From NCBI GenBank assembly GCA_023249645.1, contig JAHFCF010000010.1, forward strand, positions 37,774 through 101,773: a DNA stretch of 64,000 nucleotides, given 5' to 3'. The DNA comes from Elusimicrobiota bacterium (GTDB lineage: Bacteria > Elusimicrobiota > Elusimicrobia > UBA1565 > UBA9628). Under the pieces are notes generated by a model. That model was given only the letters and a program-made list of their open reading frames with translations. It searched no databases and was not told where the DNA came from. Below are positions 1,210-46,235 of this stretch, piece after piece. A program made the position numbers and the translations under genes. Each line of letters starts with the position of its first letter. The stretch's first letter is position 1.

Positions 1210-2466
1210 TCACGATTTTCGATCTGCACGGGCGCTGAAAATGGCCGCCAGGCCTTGCGCCGCCGCGACCGCCCAGAAGATGGGAGCCAGGTGCGGGCCG
1301 ACCAAGACGCTGGCCAGCAGCGTGACGCCGGCGGAAACGCCGAGATGAAAAGAAGATGCGAGGGCATTCCAAGCGGGTTCATGATGTTCAGCGATCCATC
1401 GTTGACTGTATTGGCGGATTTCCTCAAACTGGCGGTCCGTGGAACGGAGGAAATCGAGGGTTTCCTGGAACGCCGCCTTGACGCCTTTCTTTTTTCCTGT
1501 GGAAAAAGCCTGATAACCCTGCTGCAACCCTGAATATAAGGCCAAAATCGGCGTGCGAAGCGTTATCCCGACCAACACGACGACTGGGTATCCCAGAAGC
1601 CAGAGGACTTCCCACCACTTCGCCGTCCCATTGGCTGTGGTCATGATGAGGACTCTCGATGTGCCGGACATGCCTATGGGAATAACTTTGTAGACCAGGA
1701 GGGTCAGACCGATCGCCGAAGTCGTGGCGGAAACAAGAGCGGCAAGGGACCCTCGGAAATTCCGATAGCCCATGTGATTTCCCGCTGGGATGCCGGCAAT
1801 CATTTTGACGCTGTCTTTTCTGGCGGATTCCTTGGGGGCAGGTCCTTGAGATTTCTCAAGGGCTCTGAAGATTTTAGGTTGGCCGGCAGCGCTGGCGGCA
1901 ATCCTTACGCCATCTTGCTCAGGAGTGATCCCCAATTCGGCAACGACGTTTTTCGCCCCTTGCATGAGCGCTCGTTGGACAGCCTCTGTGTGATTCACCT
2001 GTAAGGCAATAAGCCCCAGGTTGGCCCAGCTTCTCATCTTTGCGATATCTGACGCTTTGTCCTCAGGCATCAGCGTGTCAGGGTGCTGCCTCCAGTCTTG
2101 GATCATGGATGAAATGGCTGCGGCGACGGCGCCATGTTGTTTCTCCGGGGTTTCAGCGAGAGCGAGGAAGCTCTTCTCATCGATTTTTGCTTTTGTCAGG
2201 TACTCGCTCATTTCGTCTAAGAGGACAAATTCCATCGCTGGCATGCCCCGGTTTCTTACAGAAAATCCGCTGAAGTCCTTGTTGTCCAGGGATTGAAAGT
2301 AGTCGGCAAGGACGGCAACGCTGACAGGCCCTTCTCGTCCGGGAACGCCCCTGGCGACCGGGACGATTGAGGCATTCATGGCCAAAGCCGGGGTCGCTTG
2401 GAACCCAAAGCTGATGAGGATAAAGGCAAGAGGCGTGAGTGAAATGGACAATTTCTTAATGTTCAT
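1210..2466 (-). CDS. Hypothetical exported/membrane protein with N-terminal signal peptide and hydrophobic segments
   Basis: MNIKKLSISLTPLAFILISFGFQATPALA signal peptide; hydrophobic stretches; preceded by tri-box array. Confidence 0.6.
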   Translation of the reverse strand: MNIKKLSISLTPLAFILISFGFQATPALAMNASIVPVARGVPGREGPVSVAVLADYFQSLDNKDFSGFSVRNRGMPAMEFVLLDEMSEYLTKAKIDEKSFLALAETPEKQHGAVAAAISSMIQDWRQHPDTLMPEDKASDIAKMRSWANLGLIALQVNHTEAVQRALMQGAKNVVAELGITPEQDGVRIAASAAGQPKIFRALEKSQGPAPKESARKDSVKMIAGIPAGNHMGYRNFRGSLAALVSATTSAIGLTLLVYKVIPIGMSGTSRVLIMTTANGTAKWWEVLWLLGYPVVVLVGITLRTPILALYSGLQQGYQAFSTGKKKGVKAAFQETLDFLRSTDRQFEEIRQYSQRWIAEHHEPAWNALASSFHLGVSAGVTLLASVLVGPHLAPIFWAVAAAQGLAAIFSARADRKS

Positions 2467-2504
2467 CTACTCTAGAGTCTAGCAACTCCCGGATTTTTAA
2501 AGAT

Positions 2505-2566
2505 AGGTCTTTAGGGTCAAAAAGCAGCGGCAAAAGACCTAGAACTTTTTAGGCCCTTTGGGCCTT
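2505..2566 (-). promoter_or_regulatory. Tri-box promoter array, site A
   Basis: Gene-sense boxes AAGGCCCAAAGGGCCT / TAGGTCTTTTGCCGC / TGACCCTAAAGACCT; 23 bp gap to TAGACT (2476-2481). Confidence 0.55.
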
Positions 2567-7022: not shown

Positions 7023-8047
7023 GGTCGGTGGTCGCAGACAGGGTCCTCGGTGAGAAGGTCATCGGTCGCCAGCCAGGCCCTGGCCCGGCAGCCGCCGCAG
7101 ATGTCGAGATGTTCGCAGGCCCCGCAGCGGCCCTTGTAGGTCTTGAAGTCCCGCAGGGAGTGGAAGAGCTTGGACTCGGTCCAGATCTTCCGGAAGGATT
7201 CCTTTTTGACGTTGCCGGCGGAGAGGGGGAAATAGGAGCAGGGATGGACGTCTCCTTGGTGGTTGATGAAGGCGATGCTCTGGCCGCACACGCAGCCCTT
7301 GGACCCTCCGGGAGAGAAGCTCAGGGAGCGCCGCTCGATGCCGCTCTGCGCCGCGAGGCGGTAGTATTGCGGGGCGCAGATGGGCCGCATGAGCATCCGG
7401 GATTCCTCTTTTTCTGTCCGGAGGTGCCACTCGAGGATCTTCTTATAATCCTCCGGGCTGATGAGCTCGTCCGCGATCTGGCGGCCGCGGCCCGTGGGCA
7501 CGACCATGAAGAGATACCAGGCCTTGGCGCCCAGGGACTGGGCCAGGCGATAGACGGCCGGGATGTCCGCCTGGTTGCGCTTGGTGAAGGAGGAGTTGAT
7601 GATGAACTCGATGCCGCGTCGGCGGAAGATCTCCGCTGCCTTCATGGTGCCGGCGAAGGCGCCAGCTTGTCGCCGGAAATCGTCGTGGACCTGGGCCGTG
7701 GCCCCATCCAGGGAGAGCGAGACGATGGAGATCCCGCTTTCCTGGATGCGGCCGCAGATCTCGTCCGTGATGAAGGTGCCGTTGGTCGCCATGGCCATGC
7801 GCAGGCCCAGGTCGGCGCCGAAGCGCGCGAGCTCGAAGATGTCGGGCCTCAGAAGAGGCTCGCCGCCGGAGAGCACGAGCACGGGCTTGCAGAAAGAGGC
7901 GATGTCCTTGAGGAGCGCCTGGGCTTGAGCTGTGGTGAAGTCAGTGACAGAGCCTTTACCGGCGCTGGCGCGGCAATGCACGCAGCTGAGGTTGCAGCGT
8001 CCGGTCGCTTCCCAGGCGATCCATTTGGGAAGGAATTCCTTCTTCAT
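7019..8047 (-). CDS. ahbD: Radical SAM/SPASM protein, AhbD-like heme synthase
   Basis: [17 protein letters not shown] radical SAM motif; [15 protein letters not shown]-terminal SPASM Cys ([17 protein letters not shown]); [15 protein letters not shown] and NSSFTKRNQ segments match the AhbD pattern as I recall it; within a hem cluster. Confidence 0.75.
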
Positions 8048-10107
8048 CAGGGCTTCTTGGGGGCCGCGGTCGCCAGGCCGATGTTCTTGAGGAAGGCCTC
8101 GGGATTGGGCTCGCGGCCCAGAAAGGCCCTCAAGGACCTGGCTTCGTCGCGGGCGGAGCCTTTTTCAAGGATCTCCTTGCGCAATTCTCGGCCGACCTGA
8201 GGGCTCAGGAGGCCCTCCTTCTCGAAGCGGGAGAAGGCGTCACAGGCATAGACCTCGCTCCAGAGGTAGCCGTAGTAGCCCGCGTCATAGCCCATGAGGT
8301 GCCCGAAGCTCGACTCGGGCACGGTCCCATCGGTCATGGGGATGAGCGTGATGTCCTTCATCAGCCGGGCATAGAGCGCGGTCGTGTCCATGGCCGAGCT
8401 CGAGGTGTGCAGGGCCATGTCGTAAGCGGCGAAGAAGTCCTGGCGCAGATACTCCAGGCCCGAGGCGGCGTTCTTGGCCGCGATAAGCTTTTGGATCATC
8501 TCACGCGGTATTTTTTTGGAGCGGTCCTGGGCGAAGCCTGAGACGCGGCCCAAGACCTCGTCTTTCCAAACCCAGTTCTGGAACATCTGGGAGGGCATCT
8601 CCACGAAATCGCGCGCGACCGACGTGCCGGAGAAGCGCTGGTACTTGGCGCGGGTGAGGAGCTGGTGCATGACATGGCCGAACTCGTGGAAGAGGGTCTC
8701 GACCTCGGCGTGGGGCAGAAGCGAGGCTCGCTCGGGCGCGGGCTTGTCGAAGTTGGCCACGATGGCGGCCACGGGCTTCTGGTAGGAGCCGTCCGGAAGT
8801 TCCCGGCCTTCGATGAGCGGGAAGGCCCCCGCGTGCTTGAACTTGCCCTCGCGCGGGTAGAGGTCCATGAAGAAGCGGCCGATGTACACGCCGGTGCGGC
8901 CGTCCTCGACTTCGAAGATCTTGACAGAAGGGTCCCAGGAGGCAGGCTGGGTGGCGGTCACATCGGTGAATCGGAGGCCCAGGACTTCCTGGTAGATCTT
9001 GAGCATCTCGCCGACGACCAGATCGGTCGGGAAATACTCCTTGATCTTCTCCTCATCCACGCCGTATCTGGTCTTGAGGAGTTGATTGCGGTAATAGCGC
9101 CAGTCCCAGGCGTGGATGACGCCGTCGGATCTCGGCCCTTCCTCCTTCTTTTTAAGCTCGACGAAGGCCTTGAGCTCGGGTTTGGCCTTCACCACGAGCT
9201 TCTCGCGCAGGCTGGAGAGGAATTTATCGACGGTCTGAGGGTCCTGGGCCATCTGCTCGTCCAGAACGAATTCGGCGTGGTCCTTGTAGCCCAGAAGCTT
9301 GGCCGCCTCGTCTCGGAAGCGAAGGATGTCGGCTAGGCGTTTTTTGTTTTCCTGGCCGCCGCGGGAGTCGAACTTGGTCTCCAGGATGCGCCGAGCCTCG
9401 GGATCCTGGGCGTTCTCCATGAAGGGAAAGTAGTCCGGATAGTCCAGGGTGACCTTGTAGGAGCCGTCCGGCTGGGCCGTGCGCTTCTTCATGTCCGGCG
9501 GCACGCCCTTCATCTGGGCCTCGGGGAAGACGGCGAAGTCCTTGGACTCCGAGATCCGCTGGCTGAATTCATTGGAGAGCTCGACGATGCGCTTGCGCAG
9601 GCCCTTGAGCTGCTCGCGCTGGATCTGCGGCAGGGCCAGGCCGCTGCGCCTGAAGTCCAGCAGGGTCTTCTCCATGAGGCGCGCGTCCTCGCCGCTCAAA
9701 AGCTCTCCGCGGTTGGCCGCGGCCTTGAGGATTTTGTAGAGATCCTCGCGCGAGAAGACGTCCACGGCGTATTTGGAGATGGCCGTGTCGCAGGCCAGGG
9801 CCTGCTCGCGCACGGCCTTGTCGGCGGCGACCTGGGCGAGGAAGCTGGGCACCGAGGTCTCGTCTTGCAGATCCGAGAGGATGTCCGAGAAGGGGACGAA
9901 GGTGTTGTGGAAGGCGGGTTCAGAGACCGCGGCCACGGCTTGGAGGCGCTCCTCGGCGCGGGTCTGGGCCGCGCGGCAGAGGCTCTGGATGCGGTCCACG
10001 CTCAAGTTGAAGTCGAGGGGGTTGGCGGCCTGGCTGTAGCCGGGAAGAGATGCTTGGGCGCGGACGGCGAGGAGCGCGGAAAAAAACACTATCGAGAGAT
10101 ATCTCAT
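8047..10107 (-). CDS. M3 family (thimet/oligopeptidase F-like) zinc metallopeptidase, exported
   Basis: HEFGHVMH zinc motif; N-terminal signal peptide [19 protein letters not shown]. Confidence 0.9.
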
Positions 10108-10158: not shown

Positions 10159-11640
10159 CTAAGGGCGCCACTTTTTTAGGGCTTGCAAACAGGCTTTGAG
10201 GATCGCGGTGTTCTTGGTCCCGGCATCGGATGTGTCGAGCATGAGCGCCCGCATGGCCCAGCGCAGGATCTCGAAGGTGTATTCGTAAAGCTCGACATTG
10301 AGCCGGTTGAGGTCTCGGGGAACAAGCATCGGCATTGGTTCGTCTTCGTTGGCAGGTTGCATGTGGCTCTCTGCGGGCTGCGGGGGGCTATCGCCGGGAA
10401 TGGGGCTGTTGGGATCCGCAGGCGTGTCAGAATTCATGTCAGCAGCAGGATACTCTTCCTCCCTGACTGGATCCTCGCTGGATTCTTGGAATTCGTCAAC
10501 CTTGACATTGACCATGTATAGGGCGTATTCACTGGGATCTCCGCTCTTCCCCATGTTTTGCATCATTTTTTGAATGAGGAGACGCTTGGTCTCGGTGTGA
10601 GGGGCAGGGTTGAGTTCCCACGGGTGAACGGGAAGCTGTTCCTGGACAGAAGCCTCGGTGTCAAGGCTCGCAGCATGTCCCTGCAGGCTTCTGCGGGTGG
10701 CATCCTGGATCGGCCAGCTTTTGTTTGCCGCCATGCTCTTGAGATTCTGGGCGACTGTCTTTGCCACGAGGATGAGGGCGCGCCTTTTTTCAGCGATGGT
10801 CGCCTCAGCCGGGCGCGTGAGAAGCCAGGGCGGCAGGACCGCGTAATTCTTTTCGATGTTCCTTGTCGTTGCCTTGCGGAGATGCGGGATCAGGGACTCC
10901 TCAAGGAGTTGCCGTTCGGATTTGGTCAGTCTTCCTTTTGCAAGTTCCTCGGCTTTCTGGAGGGCTTCGCGCAGCTGACCGCGGTCAGGCTCGGCGCGGA
11001 CGATGTCCTGCAAAGACTCGATGGCGCGTTTTTCAGCTGAACTGGGAGAGCCTGGGTCCTTTTTGTCAGTGAGCAAAGCATTGGCTGCCCCGGTCATGTG
11101 TTCGGAGAGTTCATCGGTATGAAGCTCGAGAGTCTGTCTGCCTTTATCGAGTTGCTGGCTGACCTGGGAGAGTTGCCCCCTTTCTTCCGGCGAGAAGACC
11201 AGGTCATAATCTCCCAGAGCCTGTTTGAGCCGGTCTCGGTCGGCTTGAGAGGAGATGGGAAGGCCCAGGGCAGCAAACTTTTCCAAGGCCTGGAAGGAAT
11301 CCCTGGTTTTGTCAGCGGCCTGGCGGGTCTTCATCAAGGCAGTGGAGATGGCTTCAACCGTCAGTTGCCCATCCAAGCCGGAAGGCAGCGCGAGGGCTAG
11401 TTTGTCCAGGGCTTGCTGCTTGGCCTCGATCGCCTGATCCAAGGAAAAGTTTTTTTCTTGCTGAAAGGATTGGATCGCGCCGCAGGCCTGTTGCGCGAGG
11501 GCGGCAGCCGGGCCGGTGTCGATGCCGCGCATCACATTGACGAACTCGACCATCCGAGGGGCGGCCCCGGCGCGGGCTTGGCCAGGGCACAGAAGCAAAG
11601 AGGCCAAGAGAACCGCGCCGGAAAATCTCATTGATTCCAT
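10159..11640 (-). CDS. Hypothetical exported helix-rich protein
   Basis: 493 aa; signal peptide MESMRFSGAVLLASLLLCPGQARA; preceded by tri-box array. Confidence 0.65.
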   Translation of the reverse strand: MESMRFSGAVLLASLLLCPGQARAGAAPRMVEFVNVMRGIDTGPAAALAQQACGAIQSFQQEKNFSLDQAIEAKQQALDKLALALPSGLDGQLTVEAISTALMKTRQAADKTRDSFQALEKFAALGLPISSQADRDRLKQALGDYDLVFSPEERGQLSQVSQQLDKGRQTLELHTDELSEHMTGAANALLTDKKDPGSPSSAEKRAIESLQDIVRAEPDRGQLREALQKAEELAKGRLTKSERQLLEESLIPHLRKATTRNIEKNYAVLPPWLLTRPAEATIAEKRRALILVAKTVAQNLKSMAANKSWPIQDATRRSLQGHAASLDTEASVQEQLPVHPWELNPAPHTETKRLLIQKMMQNMGKSGDPSEYALYMVNVKVDEFQESSEDPVREEEYPAADMNSDTPADPNSPIPGDSPPQPAESHMQPANEDEPMPMLVPRDLNRLNVELYEYTFEILRWAMRALMLDTSDAGTKNTAILKACLQALKKWRP

Positions 11641-11688
11641 ATCTGCTTCCTTATGATAGATTTTAATAATAATCTCGATTTTCGGCGC

Positions 11689-11751
11689 GGGTCTTTGGGC
11701 CTACATCGGCGGCGGAAAAGGACCTACACCCTGGTAGGTCCTTAGGGTACT
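11689..11751 (-). promoter_or_regulatory. Tri-box promoter array, site B
   Basis: Gene-sense boxes AGTACCCTAAGGACCT / TAGGTCCTTTTCCGC / TAGGCCCAAAGACCC; 23 bp gap to TAAAAT (11660-11665). Confidence 0.7.
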
Positions 11752-14878: not shown

Positions 14879-14925
14879 AATGGCCTCCGTGGCGAGATTA
14901 TACAGAACCGTTTGTTTTTTCCTGC

Positions 14926-14988
14926 GGGTCTTTGGACCTAGGAGGGCGGCGGAAAAGGACCTAGATTGTTATGGGTCTTTTGGGTAAG
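14926..14988 (-). promoter_or_regulatory. Tri-box promoter array, site C
   Basis: Gene-sense boxes CTTACCCAAAAGACCC / TAGGTCCTTTTCCGC / TAGGTCCAAAGACCC; 23 bp gap to TATAAT (14897-14902). Confidence 0.75.
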
Positions 14989-15018: not shown

Positions 15019-16767
15019 TCAGAGATAGGAGATCTTCACGTCGCGCCACCGTCTGAGGATCTCTTGGAACTTCACGGCCGTGGCGATGAGTTCCTCTTGG
15101 CGGCCCGTGGGGTTTTCGTCCATCCGGAGCACCCGGATGTATCCGCGCATGAGCAGATAGGCCTGTTGAGCGACTTCGTAGATCTTCTCGTCTCTCTCGA
15201 TCTGGTCTTTTCTCAGCTGTTCGATCTGATACTCGCTGGGAGGAGGCATATGGGGATTGGGTTCTGAGATGAGGTTGGGGTTGAAGCTCGGGTCGGCCAG
15301 GTCATTGGTGGCGGCGCGCAGCTTGTCCGCCTCTTGCCGCAGACCGGAGATGCCGTAGCCTTCTTTCTTGATGAAATCGGAGGCGGAGCGCGCGATGGCG
15401 GCCACCGCCTCTCTTTTGCCGTCGATGTTGAGATCGATGGGGTCCGGATCCCGGTCATAAGGCTGGATCTCCCGCGGCAGCTTCGCCCGCGCGTTCGCGC
15501 GAGAGCTCGCGGGAGCCCGGTCCCAGGCGTGCCGCCAATCCTCCAGCTGCTGCAGGTCGGCCGGGGTAAGCTGGTTGCCGACGGCATGGGCGAAAAGATC
15601 CTTGGCTCGGTCCACGGCGGCTTGGAGCGCGGAGGGTGTCGATGTTTCTTTGAAGATCGCGGCGAGTTTGTTCACTTCGGGATGGAGAGTGGGCCGCAGG
15701 GGCGCCTGGGCGGCCGCGGCAGGGGATTCATCCTTCCCGGACTTCAGCCGGGCCAAGGCTTCTTCGACCTGCTGGGAGGCGTTCTCGACGCGCTGGGCTT
15801 GGTCCGGATCGAACTTGGTCCTGAGCAGGGAGTAGGCCGTCAGGAGGACCTGCATGTCGGCTTCGATCGTCGTGAAGAATTTTTGACGATCCAGGAGCTC
15901 GTTTGCCGCTAACGACAGGCGGAGGTGTTCCTGGAGTTTCATGGCGGCATCAGCCAGATCCCGTCTTTTTTTGTTCTCCTCCTCCCGGATGGCGAGGCCG
16001 CGGTCTTGGCTCAAGAAGAGCTCCGCATTGTTGAGGATTTCAGTGTGGGCGAAGATGACGACGCTCTTGCCCTCCGCGTCCTTGGTCATGATGGCTTCCC
16101 GCACCAGCCTCAGGACGGCTCCGGCCGCGGCTTGGTGGGTCTGCATCCGCGTGTCCGCGGGCTGGGCTTTCGCCAAGCTCGAGGGATTGGGGAGATCGGG
16201 CAAGAGAAGAGAGGGCAGCCGGTCTTTTTCGTTGCGGATCCGGCGCAGATCCACGGCGAGGAACTGGGCGTCGAGCTCCCTTCGGCGGGCCCCCAGATCC
16301 TCCATGAGCGCCCGGAGTGTTTTTTCATGGGAGGGGGAGAGGGAGATCCTTCGGCGGAGCAGGAGATCCTCGGCCAGGGTGTAATCATCTCGGTCGTTGA
16401 CGATGTTGTTGAAGCGCAGTTTGGGGTCCTGCTTCTTATACCAGGCGTCGTGCTTCTGGATCTCTCGGAAGTCTTGCCTGGCCTTGAGGAATTCCTCGCG
16501 CAAGGCTGTGGCCAGGGAGTCCGGGGTCAGTTCCGGTCCGATGCGGGCATCCAGCGAGGAGAGCAGGTCCTTTTGCCGGTCCGCGGGGAGGTCCTGCAAT
16601 CGGCTGGCAGCGTTGCGGGCCAGCGCGCCGGAGATCCCCGTATTGATGGTCGGCAACAGCCGGATGACGGGTTCGACGCGCACCACGGGCGCGGCAGCGC
16701 GGGAGACTGCGGCGACGGCCAGAACAAGGGCGATGACCAAGGAGTGGATGCGGATCCTCTTGTTCAT
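15019..16767 (-). CDS. Exported hypothetical helix-rich protein, tandem paralog 1
   Basis: 582 aa with signal peptide; extensive identity to 16890..18650. Confidence 0.75.
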   Translation of the reverse strand: MNKRIRIHSLVIALVLAVAAVSRAAAPVVRVEPVIRLLPTINTGISGALARNAASRLQDLPADRQKDLLSSLDARIGPELTPDSLATALREEFLKARQDFREIQKHDAWYKKQDPKLRFNNIVNDRDDYTLAEDLLLRRRISLSPSHEKTLRALMEDLGARRRELDAQFLAVDLRRIRNEKDRLPSLLLPDLPNPSSLAKAQPADTRMQTHQAAAGAVLRLVREAIMTKDAEGKSVVIFAHTEILNNAELFLSQDRGLAIREEENKKRRDLADAAMKLQEHLRLSLAANELLDRQKFFTTIEADMQVLLTAYSLLRTKFDPDQAQRVENASQQVEEALARLKSGKDESPAAAAQAPLRPTLHPEVNKLAAIFKETSTPSALQAAVDRAKDLFAHAVGNQLTPADLQQLEDWRHAWDRAPASSRANARAKLPREIQPYDRDPDPIDLNIDGKREAVAAIARSASDFIKKEGYGISGLRQEADKLRAATNDLADPSFNPNLISEPNPHMPPPSEYQIEQLRKDQIERDEKIYEVAQQAYLLMRGYIRVLRMDENPTGRQEELIATAVKFQEILRRWRDVKISYL

Positions 16768-16822
16768 GATATATAGACCTTAATACTGGCGATATTTTAG
16801 CCGGAATGCCGATTTTGGGGGA

Positions 16823-16885
16823 GGGTCTTTGGACCTAGGAGGAAACCGGCAATGGGCCTAGGCGGTCCTAGTGCTTTTGGTCCCG
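16823..16885 (-). promoter_or_regulatory. Tri-box promoter array, site D
   Basis: Gene-sense boxes CGGGACCAAAAGCACT / TAGGCCCATTGCCGG / TAGGTCCAAAGACCC; 23 bp gap to TAAAAT (16794-16799). Confidence 0.75.
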
Positions 16886-16889
16886 GCTT

Positions 16890-18650
16890 TCAGAAATAGG
16901 GGATCTTGACGTCGCGCCAGCGCCTGAGCATGGATTGGAACTTCACGGCCGTGGCGATGAGCTCGTCTCGGCGATCCGCGAGCTTTTTGTCCTTGGAGAC
17001 CATCTGGATGTAGTCGCGCAGGAGCGCATGGGCCTGTTGAGCGAGGTTATAGATCGCCCCATCTCTCTCCATGATGTCATTTCTTAGCCGCTCGATGGCG
17101 TCCTCGGAGGGGGGGGGCTCCCCGGCGTAGGGCTCTCGGATGAGATGGAACTGTCTGCCCAATATGTCGGCATCCTGGATGAGATTGTCGGCTGCGGCCG
17201 AGATCTCGCGTTTTCCGGGTTCGTGGCTCTGCGGGCCGGAGATGCCGTTGCCCCCTTTGGTGATGAACTCGCCGGAATGGCGCGCGAGGGCGGACATCCT
17301 GTTCTTTTTCTCGTCTATATTGGGGAATCCCGGGTCTTGGTCGTAGTCCCGGACTGTCAGCGGCAGCTTGGCCGTCGCGGGTTGGCGCGAGCTGGCGGAG
17401 GGCCGGCCCCAGACGCGCAAGAAAGAGATCAGGCGGCGGCGGTCGGCATGGGAGAGTTTGTTGCGCTTGTAATGGAGCAGAAGATCCTTGGTCTGGGCCA
17501 AGGCGGCCTGGATCGCGGCTCGATCGGCTGTTGCTTTGAAGATCGCGGCAAGCTTGTTCACTTCAGGATGGAGCGACGGCCGGGCAGGCGCCCGGACGAC
17601 CGGGACGCTGGGGCGTTCGTCGCCTTTAGACTTGAGCCGGGCCGCGGCCTCTTGGGCCTGTTGGAGGGCGCTCTGCACGCGTTGGGCTTTTTCAGCGTGG
17701 AAATCAGTCCTGATCTGAGAATAGGACTTCAGGATGGCTTTGATCTTTTTATCGACCGCGGTGAAAAAGAGGGGGCGATCCAACGATTCATTTTGGGCCA
17801 ACGAGAGCACGATATGTTTCTGGAGGTCCATGGCTGCGGCGGCCAGATCCTTCCTCTTTTGGGATTCGGTCTCTAGGATGAAGACATTCTGGTCGCTGAA
17901 TCTCTCGGGCTCGGTCAGGATCTCATCGCCGGCGATGGCCATGATGGTCTTGCCATCCCTGTCCTTGGTCATGATGGCTTCCCGCACGAGCCTCAGGACG
18001 GCTCCGGCCGCGGCTTGGCGGGCCTGCATCCGCGTGTCCGCGGGCTTGGCTTTCGCCGCGTTCGTGTTTTGGGTGGAGCTGGGCAAGAGCTGCGAGGGTA
18101 ACCGATCTTGCTGGTCGCGCATCAGGCGCCAGCTGACTTCCAGCAATTGAGAATCAAGCTCTCTTCGGCGGGCCCCCAGATCCTCCATGAGAGCTCGGAG
18201 TGTTTTTTCATGGGAGGGGGAGAGCGATAGCCTGCGATTCTGCAGCAGATCGGAAGCCATGGCGTAATCATCCCGGTCGTTGACGATGTTGCTGGTGCGT
18301 ACCTTGGGGTCCTGCTTCTTATACCAGGCGTCATGCTCCTGGATCTCTCGGAAGTCTTGCCTAGCCTTGAGGAATTCCTCCCGCAAGGCCTTGCTCAGGG
18401 AGTCCGGGGTCAGTTCCGGTCCGATGCGGGCATCCAGCGAAGAGAGCAGGTCCTGCTGCAGAGCCGCGGGAAGGTTCTGCAATCGGCTGGAAGCGTTGCG
18501 GGCCAGCGCGCCGGAGATCCCCGCAGGGATGGTCGCCAGCAGCTGGAGGATGGGCTCGACGCGCACCACGGGCGCGGCAGCGCGGGAGGCTGCGGCGACG
18601 GCCAGAACAAGGGTGATGACCAAGGAGGGGATACGGATTCTCTGGCTCAT
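16890..18650 (-). CDS. Exported hypothetical helix-rich protein, tandem paralog 2
   Basis: 586 aa with signal peptide; N-terminal ~200 aa nearly colinear with paralog 1. Confidence 0.75.
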   Translation of the reverse strand: MSQRIRIPSLVITLVLAVAAASRAAAPVVRVEPILQLLATIPAGISGALARNASSRLQNLPAALQQDLLSSLDARIGPELTPDSLSKALREEFLKARQDFREIQEHDAWYKKQDPKVRTSNIVNDRDDYAMASDLLQNRRLSLSPSHEKTLRALMEDLGARRRELDSQLLEVSWRLMRDQQDRLPSQLLPSSTQNTNAAKAKPADTRMQARQAAAGAVLRLVREAIMTKDRDGKTIMAIAGDEILTEPERFSDQNVFILETESQKRKDLAAAAMDLQKHIVLSLAQNESLDRPLFFTAVDKKIKAILKSYSQIRTDFHAEKAQRVQSALQQAQEAAARLKSKGDERPSVPVVRAPARPSLHPEVNKLAAIFKATADRAAIQAALAQTKDLLLHYKRNKLSHADRRRLISFLRVWGRPSASSRQPATAKLPLTVRDYDQDPGFPNIDEKKNRMSALARHSGEFITKGGNGISGPQSHEPGKREISAAADNLIQDADILGRQFHLIREPYAGEPPPSEDAIERLRNDIMERDGAIYNLAQQAHALLRDYIQMVSKDKKLADRRDELIATAVKFQSMLRRWRDVKIPYF

Positions 18651-18707
18651 GGCATCTTCCTTAATACTGATTGGCGGTATTTTAGTAAGAATGCCTGTTT
18701 TTCGTAC

Positions 18708-18770
18708 GGGTCTTTGGACCTATAAGGAAACCGACAATGGACCTAGGCCGTCTTAGTACTTTTGGTCCCT
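18708..18770 (-). promoter_or_regulatory. Tri-box promoter array, site E
   Basis: Gene-sense boxes AGGGACCAAAAGTACT / TAGGTCCATTGTCGG / TAGGTCCAAAGACCC; 23 bp gap to TAAAAT (18679-18684). Confidence 0.75.
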
Positions 18771-43736: not shown

Positions 43737-46160
43737 TCAGTCGTGCGTCAGGGAAGGCGGCTGCAATCGGGATTCCTCATCCAGGACGGCTCGGACCTTC
43801 TCGTCGATCTGTTCCTTCTGGAATTGGCCTTGGACCATGACATCCTCTTCGCCGCCCAGCTTCTTGTTCGTCGTAAAGAAGAATTTCCCATAGATGTCCA
43901 CCGGGCTGCCGTCCGCGGGCTTCTGGATGAGCTGGAGGAGCACCTTCATGACCGCCTCATGCTTCAAGCCGCAGCGGCCCTTGCCGGAGAGGATGTCCGT
44001 CAGGGCGGTCATCCGGCCGGTCCAATTTTTCTTGCCGGCTTCCAGGATGTCCGCGGCGAGGAAAACCGCGGAACGCGCCAGACGGTCGATCTGGCCCAGG
44101 ATCCGGGGGGCGGCTTGGTCCCGGAGCAGGTGCAGGGCCTGCATCAAGGCTCTGGAATCGTAGGAGAGGCTCCCGTCTTTCTCGATCGTCGCCAAGGAGA
44201 GAACGGCATCCATGGAGCGGCGCGCGGTCCCGGTGAGCGTGTGGACGAAAGCCTGGATGATCTTCTCGGCGGGAGCCGCGAAGATGTCCGCGAGGCATTT
44301 TTCCTTGAGGAGCAGGTTGATCGAAAAGGAGGCGGAGCGATAGAGCCTCAGGCCGGAGCTCGATGCGGTGGAAGTAAAGAGTTGGGCGGTCGGGATCTCC
44401 GCGTCCGGGTTCGTCCCTGGGCCCAGGGCCCCGAGATAATGCAGAAGGGAGTTGGCTTCATCGGCCATGCCGCGGACTTTCTTTTCTCCGCTGCGCAGCA
44501 CGCCGCCATGCTTCGTGTAGATCAGAAAGGGATGCTCGGCCTGGCCGTGATCGTCGAGGGGGATGTAGGCTTCCGCTGTCTTGAGATGATCCCTCTTGAC
44601 GAGATAGCCGAAAAACGGCACATCCCAGGCGCTTAAGGAGGCTAGTTTTGAGCGTTCATCGATGAAGAGCGTGCCGGGTTGTCCCTGGATCAGGATATGG
44701 TGCTGATCGCGGGCATGCAGCGTGCTGAACTCTCCGATGAGTGGCAGCCGCGCGTGCAGCTGTCCCAGCTTGTCCGGCTCGTGGGTGTAGTCGTCCGCGG
44801 CCAGGCGGGTGGGCGTGCCGAGGCGGGCGTATTTCTTCTTCAAACGGTTGAGATGCTCGTTCTGGTCGCCGTTCTGCGGATCCGTGAAGATATGTTCGGC
44901 ATGGGCGGTGATCTTATGCAGGAGAAAAAGGGCGCTCACCTGACCTTTGAGGAAGTCGGCCAGGGCCTGCATCTGCTTCGGGTCGTTGGTCTGGATGAGG
45001 AACTCCAAGAACATCATGCGGCCGTCTGTTTTCGGCGCCGCGCTTTCCAGCGTCGTCCAGAGGTAGTGGTTGATCTCGCCCAAGAGGACGTTGTGGATCT
45101 GATCATCAAGGAAGCCGGGGGCTTGTTTCCCCGTCCATCGAGGAGAGGAGTTCTCCATCCAGGAGGGCCAATGGGCCAGGCCCAGGATGGGGATGGAGGG
45201 ATGGATGCCGGCGCCCGGGGTTGTGACCAGGGCCCGGTCGATGCGCAGGCGCAGGCGGATCTGCTCCGGGCTCGATCGGAACACGGTGACAGTGGCTGTC
45301 TCCTGTTTGGAGGCTCCGTAGGAGAGAGTGACCGTGACCAAGCCGAGGGGGATGTTGACGTTGGGCGAGGCGCCCACGCTACCTGAAGCCCCCAGGTTCA
45401 GGGGCAGCTGCCATTGCTCTGCGACGATCATGGAGGAGAGGCTCTGGGTCGAGACATCAATGACCGTTTTGAAATCCATCAGATTGAGGAGTTTTTTGAT
45501 CTGCGCGCAGGAATCCGCGGATCCCAAGGGGCGGATCACGTACGCATTGCCGTCCAGACTGGCTTGCGGAGAGATGGAGATGGGAAGGTTGATGTTTTTG
45601 GCCAGGAAGGACCAGCCTTTGGAGTATCCCAAGGAGATCCCTAATTCTGAATTGTCGACGATGCCCAGGGTGTTGTTGGGATAATGGATCAGGGAGCGCT
45701 TGATGCCGATGGGAACTTGGGCATTGCCTCCGATCTTGGCGAGCGCCGCGGGCATGGGGATGCTGCCCTTGAGCGGGAGCTGGATGTTGCCGCAGAGGTC
45801 GTTGAGCGCGCGGCGTTGGAACTGCTCCACATAGAAGGATTCGAATTTTTTCCAGAGGGGATCCGAGGCCGTCTGATCTTCGCTTCTCGGGGTTGCGGCC
45901 ACAGTGGGGTGATGGCCGGGAAGGCCGGATCCGGTGAACAGCGCTTCGATGTCCCAGCCTCGCGCTTGCTTGGCCTGGGTGGATCGGGTGTGGATGCCGG
46001 CCAAGACCTTTCGCTGATCCGTCGGAAGGTGGATGCAATCGGCAAAGGATTCGTCGGGCGGATCGAAGCCCAGTTCCTTGGCCTGCGCGAGCGCCGCGGG
46101 CAGGAGGCAGCCTGCAGCGAGGGCCGCAGTCCAAGTTTTCCGCCAGCAGGAGGTGGACAT
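43737..46160 (-). CDS. Large exported hypothetical protein
   Basis: 807 aa; signal peptide MSTSCWRKTWTAALAAGCLLPAALAQA; divergent from ftsQ-like gene, array F between. Confidence 0.65.
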   Translation of the reverse strand: MSTSCWRKTWTAALAAGCLLPAALAQAKELGFDPPDESFADCIHLPTDQRKVLAGIHTRSTQAKQARGWDIEALFTGSGLPGHHPTVAATPRSEDQTASDPLWKKFESFYVEQFQRRALNDLCGNIQLPLKGSIPMPAALAKIGGNAQVPIGIKRSLIHYPNNTLGIVDNSELGISLGYSKGWSFLAKNINLPISISPQASLDGNAYVIRPLGSADSCAQIKKLLNLMDFKTVIDVSTQSLSSMIVAEQWQLPLNLGASGSVGASPNVNIPLGLVTVTLSYGASKQETATVTVFRSSPEQIRLRLRIDRALVTTPGAGIHPSIPILGLAHWPSWMENSSPRWTGKQAPGFLDDQIHNVLLGEINHYLWTTLESAAPKTDGRMMFLEFLIQTNDPKQMQALADFLKGQVSALFLLHKITAHAEHIFTDPQNGDQNEHLNRLKKKYARLGTPTRLAADDYTHEPDKLGQLHARLPLIGEFSTLHARDQHHILIQGQPGTLFIDERSKLASLSAWDVPFFGYLVKRDHLKTAEAYIPLDDHGQAEHPFLIYTKHGGVLRSGEKKVRGMADEANSLLHYLGALGPGTNPDAEIPTAQLFTSTASSSGLRLYRSASFSINLLLKEKCLADIFAAPAEKIIQAFVHTLTGTARRSMDAVLSLATIEKDGSLSYDSRALMQALHLLRDQAAPRILGQIDRLARSAVFLAADILEAGKKNWTGRMTALTDILSGKGRCGLKHEAVMKVLLQLIQKPADGSPVDIYGKFFFTTNKKLGGEEDVMVQGQFQKEQIDEKVRAVLDEESRLQPPSLTHD

Positions 46161-46179
46161 CGATTCCAGGATAAAGAAA

Positions 46180-46235
46180 AAAGACCCTTAAGGCGAGGGG
46201 CGAAAGACCCAGAGGCGGGGGGGTCTTTCGACCTA
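46180..46235. promoter_or_regulatory. Related box array, site F (variant geometry)
   Basis: AAAGACCC at 46180-46187 and 46203-46210 (23 bp apart), GGGTCTTTCGACCTA at 46221-46235. Confidence 0.5.

Follow-up and report, generated by a model that had tools for sequence, protein, structure and literature searches.

Box arrays upstream of exported-protein genes in Elusimicrobia point to a regulon with DosR-like promoter design and a predicted NarL/FixJ-type regulator

Why should the gene of an exported protein be preceded by three phased boxes that recur in front of apparently unrelated genes? The question is raised by site A, an array of three boxes plus a −10 element upstream of 1210..2466 in a 64,000-nt stretch (the window) of contig JAHFCF010000010.1 from an Elusimicrobiota bacterium. 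Members of this phylum are mostly uncultured. The original prediction, made from the letters alone, regarded site A as the fifth copy of an array found mainly in a cluster 8 kb away and favored a trans-acting regulon over local duplication. Our analysis points to a larger system than was proposed. The arrays almost certainly belong to one regulon of mostly exported proteins, and in our overall reading, which we hold with good though incomplete confidence, site A would act as a class II activator promoter within a class-wide exported-protein regulon under a NarL/FixJ regulator.

The letters, coordinates, and phasing of the site A boxes check out, as does the 23-bp gap between box 3 and TAGACT, which amounts to 23 nt from the 15-bp box originally defined and to 22 nt from the 16-mer described below (Table 1). 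When the regions upstream of 1210, 10159, 12401, 15019, and 16890 were aligned, a conserved AAAA tract appeared along with the three boxes and the −10 hexamer, and the distance from the 15-bp box 3 to the −10 was exactly 23 nt in every one of the five arrays. First-order Markov copies of the window held on average 0 triple and 0.017 double arrays, versus 1 and 4 observed. No exact repeats were found within single upstream regions, because the boxes are degenerate. The 1210 ATG lies 9 nt past the −10, which would render the transcript almost leader-free. Site A is thus a real array but not just the fifth, since the window contains a sixth and the genome about 75 such loci. Array proteins are almost all non-homologous, as was claimed for the 1210 product relative to the others, but this protein does have a paralogue (25 to 29% identity; G000:C19:148.2 kb) that carries its own boxes and −10. 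An AlphaFold model of the 1210 protein, run with its one paralogue, was unusable (mean predicted local distance difference test score of 33), and a weak 1210 relative in G035:C98 was dropped as an array-linked candidate, the start of its open reading frame (ORF) being ~730 bp from the model match.

Genome-wide searches were run on the 2.27-Mb host assembly (93% complete). The pattern AAAGACC-N24-TANNNT matched 27 times versus 2 for its reversed version, and a sequence-only profile built from the five arrays returned 105 matches at E values up to 10. De novo motif derivation from 362 kb around profile and pattern matches defined the box as a 16-bp palindrome with inverted half-sites, TRGGYCYWWRGRCCYA, present at 206 sites versus 20 expected from shuffles; the exact 16-mer has 35 genomic copies, versus 1 for the reversed control. 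Altogether, 75 array loci hold 84 promoters with TANNNT 21 to 24 nt downstream. The motif scan suggested along with the original prediction therefore recovers dispersed loci that share box, spacing, and −10 distance while encoding mostly unrelated proteins, as a trans-acting regulon would. Judged from these comparisons, local duplication accounts solely for 15019 and 16890, tandem paralogous genes of exported proteins (15019..18650, minus strand) with one array each.

Array promoters share a common architecture. They contain one to five boxes, mostly two or three, spaced by 22 to 25 bp or, where a middle box falls below the scoring level, by 46 to 48 bp; tri-arrays likewise have their weaker box in the middle (mean score of 12.8 versus 17.3 and 17.2 for the outer boxes). 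Nine arrays are two-way, lying between divergent genes. The box-to-−10 distance has its mode at 22 nt over the 84 promoters, a figure to be read knowing that 27 loci were chosen via a pattern that includes the −10 and that many profile matches spanned boxes only. No conserved −35 element was found between box and −10 across the array promoters. Positioned from the −10, the proximal box is predicted to be centered at ~−42.5, which is the class II activator position. A proximal site overlapping the −35 position, a fixed −10 distance, and the lack of a −35 consensus, the features that define class II activator promoters, were all found. The ATG follows the −10 by exactly 6 nt, i.e., at the expected +1, in 16/61 promoters, and this quarter or so probably gives rise to leaderless mRNAs. 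A −10 directly before the start was about four times commoner among regulon genes (16/51) than among others (15/196). Start codons at the predicted +1 in many regulon promoters, e.g., window positions 46160-46173, suggest that leaderless mRNAs occur in Elusimicrobiota.

Most of the genes behind the arrays share the destination of their products. By a signal-peptide rule of our own, which is cruder than SignalP and asks for a positive N-region followed by a hydrophobic core and small residues, 68 of the 84 array genes encode an N-terminal signal peptide versus 47/196 (24%) of other genes in the same stretches (Fisher p = 4e-19); loci had been picked without regard to signal peptides. All-against-all BLAST of the array proteins, a set outside which the window's 15019 product fell, linked no more than two genuine pairs, apart from one gene that had been counted twice. 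Pfam domains were assigned to a minority, most proteins having no Pfam family, and the recognizable ones are mostly secreted hydrolases: peptidases of types S46, M3, S8, S41 (2), M48 (2), and calpain C2, together with matches to an S33-like hydrolase, PLD (2), endonuclease I, and alpha-amylase. ClpB-like and LonB-like AAA+ proteins complete the list. The ClpB-like one is the 12401 product, with an N-terminal signal peptide; an ATP-driven unfoldase would not be expected beyond the cytoplasm. An AAA_5 protein is in the array set as well. One of the few non-exported members is a stand-alone receiver-domain protein (L092:5132-5554; G000:C26, ~68.9 kb) with a three-box array upstream and TATAAT at 23 nt. 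An exported M3 peptidase adjoining the main cluster (8047..10107, minus strand) lacks an array of its own, and a different M3 peptidase in the genome has one.

Across 19 other genomes of class Elusimicrobia, among them G088 of family f12 with five exact sites, 54/69 exact sites precede an ORF with a signal peptide, versus 16% of random positions, and a second box 23 to 24 bp off is common there as well. The array arrangement is seen in other families of the class, and the promoter design thus predates the genes that it drives.

What protein could read these boxes? The host genome encodes only two LuxR/GerE-type proteins, 76% identical NarL/FixJ-type response regulators that both have a full receiver and a GerE helix-turn-helix, one of them the orphan on C19. 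Orthologues were found throughout the class, with a nearly invariant recognition region. Among 151 genomes of the phylum, the exact 16-mer is present in 58/67 with an orthologue versus 3/84 without, and these three contain a single site each. Within the class alone the counts are 58/67 versus 1/5 (p = 0.003), a contrast confounded by descent. Class members that lack the motif along with the orthologue, or that have a distant one, are G037, G049, G050, G051, G149, and G170; distant regulator versions (51% in G050, 42% in G049, 36% in G051, and 32% in G170) show no motif excess, which is also absent in G018, the sole family-level case. G027 and G031 were rejected as instances of motif without regulator, since a fragment with 81% identity is present in G031 and completeness is just 77 to 79% for the two genomes. 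In the recognition helix, K, K, and N align with Lys179, Lys182, and Asn183 of DosR, residues that contact bases (PMC4082495). We therefore predict, with fairly high confidence, that this conserved DosR-like response regulator is the box-binding protein. Universal autoregulation was discarded as a proposal, a box being located upstream of the regulator gene only in G007 and G008. In these two genomes (G007:C27, L194; G008:C5:245-260, L294), the box just 5′ of the gene suggests autoregulation in some genera only.

Table 1. Positions of array elements and exported-protein genes in the window, and of the candidate regulator gene (PWM, position weight matrix)
Feature	Coordinates	Strand	Details
Site A, box 1 (distal) AGGCCCAAAGGGCCTA	2550..2565	-	PWM score 13.9; register 2551-2566 in the original prediction
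Site A, box 2 (middle, weaker) TAGGTCTTTTGCCGCT	2526..2541	-	PWM score 11.7
Site A, box 3 (proximal) TGACCCTAAAGACCTA	2504..2519	-	PWM score 15.4; predicted center ~ −42.5
−10 element TAGACT of 1210 promoter	2476..2481	-	22 nt from proximal 16-mer, the genome-wide modal spacing
Exported protein (418 aa) with N-terminal signal peptide and no Pfam family	1210..2466	-	ORF, Pfam
Proximal box of 10159 array	11688..11703	-	Score 15.3; alignment
Exported protein, 493 aa, no Pfam family	10159..11640	-	ORF, Pfam
Proximal box of 12401 array	14925..14940	-	Score 16.9
Distal box of 12401 array	14972-14987	-	Score 10.9
ClpB-like AAA+ protein with signal peptide, 825 aa	12401..14878	-	Pfam AAA_2, AAA_lid_9, ClpB_D2-small
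Proximal box of 15019 array	16822..16837	-	Score 18.8
Exported protein, 582 aa, 16890 paralogue, no Pfam family	15019..16767	-	ORF, Pfam
Proximal box of 16890 array	18707..18722	-	Score 20.7
Exported protein, 586 aa, no Pfam family	16890..18650	-	ORF, Pfam
Sixth array	46196..46235	-	Boxes 46196-46211 and 46220-46235; 22 nt, TATCCT; ATG 7 nt further
Exported protein, 807 aa, no Pfam family, behind sixth array	43737..46160	-	ORF, Pfam
Orphan NarL/FixJ response regulator	G000:C19:95872-96543		Paralogue at C8, 76% identical

The mechanism that we propose is as follows. A dimeric NarL/FixJ-family response regulator, either the C19 orphan or its C8 paralogue, would bind the 16-bp palindrome; two or three neighboring boxes ~23 to 24 bp apart would be occupied cooperatively, and the proximal dimer at ~−42.5, with no conserved −35 at hand, would bring RNA polymerase to a −10 of the sigma-70 type. 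We infer binding, phosphorylation, cooperativity, activation over repression, and the physiological role from sequence, activation being likely and the physiological role a guess. Several observations weigh against this picture. No 1210 orthologue was found in congeners. The host regulator has no kinase gene beside it and stands alone, divergent to nuoABC-like genes, and an own box before the regulator gene is usually absent. Nine genomes with an orthologue have zero exact 16-mers, and the sampled class members without an orthologue number only five. The regulator assignment, moreover, draws on co-occurrence, which follows phylogeny, and on resemblances in the motif and in the contact residues, and box spacings of 23 to 24 and 47 bp do not correspond to whole helical turns.

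Some of these points would equally suit a genuine regulon whose palindrome is bound by a different transcription factor. Any class-conserved regulator would give a similar profile, the box seldom precedes the regulator gene, and the exact 16-mer is missing from the nine orthologue-bearing genomes. We nonetheless regard this as unlikely, given the DosR-like box layout and contact residues, the fact that a genome with ~75 arrays encodes just two proteins of the LuxR type, and the absence of the motif from class members with no orthologue or a distant one, as well as of its excess from G018. The sign of regulation is a separate matter: a dimer at −42.5 would also obstruct RNA polymerase, and geometry alone gives no sign, so that the arrays could repress, or one protein could both repress and activate by position. 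The missing −35 fits activator-dependent promoters, however, and a −10 placed at a constant 22 nt is what class II activation typically shows, which makes repression or a dual role rather improbable.

That the boxes are instead a transcribed RNA element, i.e., attenuator or riboswitch-like hairpins, is suggested by their palindromic nature and by the sixth array, which could fold as a hairpin. Yet the predicted −10 comes after the boxes, not before them, the consensus fold shows zero compensatory pairs and a penalizing covariation term, and nine arrays serve divergent genes in both directions, leaving an RNA element very little credit. Spread of the arrays by local duplication or as a mobile repeat has still less in its favor and is hardly credible: the 15019/16890 tandem pair does have similar upstream regions, but conservation does not extend to the sequence between boxes, the proteins encoded downstream are unrelated, and the arrangement occurs in other families of the class.

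The proposed class II activator promoter under a NarL/FixJ regulator has a close parallel in DosR/DevR of Mycobacterium tuberculosis, which has ~50 target genes (PMC2275270, PMC3029386), recognizes the box TTSGGGACTWWAGTCCCSAA (PMC2275270), and acts at targets with closely packed, cooperatively filled sites, the proximal one overlapping the −35 (PMC3029386). In common with it, the Elusimicrobia system has, as its candidate regulator, a NarL-family response regulator retaining the contact residues Lys179/Lys182/Asn183, a palindromic box with the common layout xGGxCyWWrGxCCx, and one or more closely packed boxes whose proximal copy overlaps the −35. The two differ in that TRGGYCYWWRGRCCYA does not fit TTSGGGACTWWAGTCCCSAA (TRGGYC here versus GGGAC in DosR), in their targets (exported proteins versus dormancy genes) and phylum, and in the Elusimicrobia regulator gene, which lacks a neighboring sensor kinase and is usually not preceded by a box. 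NarL and VraR, of the same family and domain order and among the top matches with a known structure, lack Asn at the DosR 183 position, unlike the Elusimicrobia regulator, which scored under every cut-off of the NCBIfam named families listed. Sigma-54, described as a controller of the bacterial exterior, is absent from Elusimicrobium minutum, listed among the diderms without it (PMC3162934). The sigma-54 system resembles the present one as a global regulator with cell-exterior targets, whereas the −10 of array promoters is of the sigma-70 type and they lack a sigma-54 element. We found no earlier description of such an Elusimicrobiota regulon in the open-access literature searched.

Collectively, these comparisons define what we take to be a NarL/FixJ-type regulon with a DosR-like promoter design and exported proteins as targets. 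The predicted switch would turn on the breakdown or processing of external macromolecules, a role that is probable because the products are secreted or periplasmic and many of the recognizable ones are hydrolases. On a broader proposal, to which we give even chances, an orphan DosR-like regulator would be a class-wide master switch defined by destination, not by pathway, ruling much of the exported proteome (hydrolases, AAA+ proteins, and unannotated families), often through leaderless mRNAs, with members joining gene by gene via convergent gain of box arrays. With the box as a sequence tag, dozens of unannotated exported proteins can be marked in each genome and would be joined in one program, and the candidate regulator, now named, can be tested both in vitro and in a class member available in culture. 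A response regulator may thus collect unrelated secreted proteins under a single promoter design.
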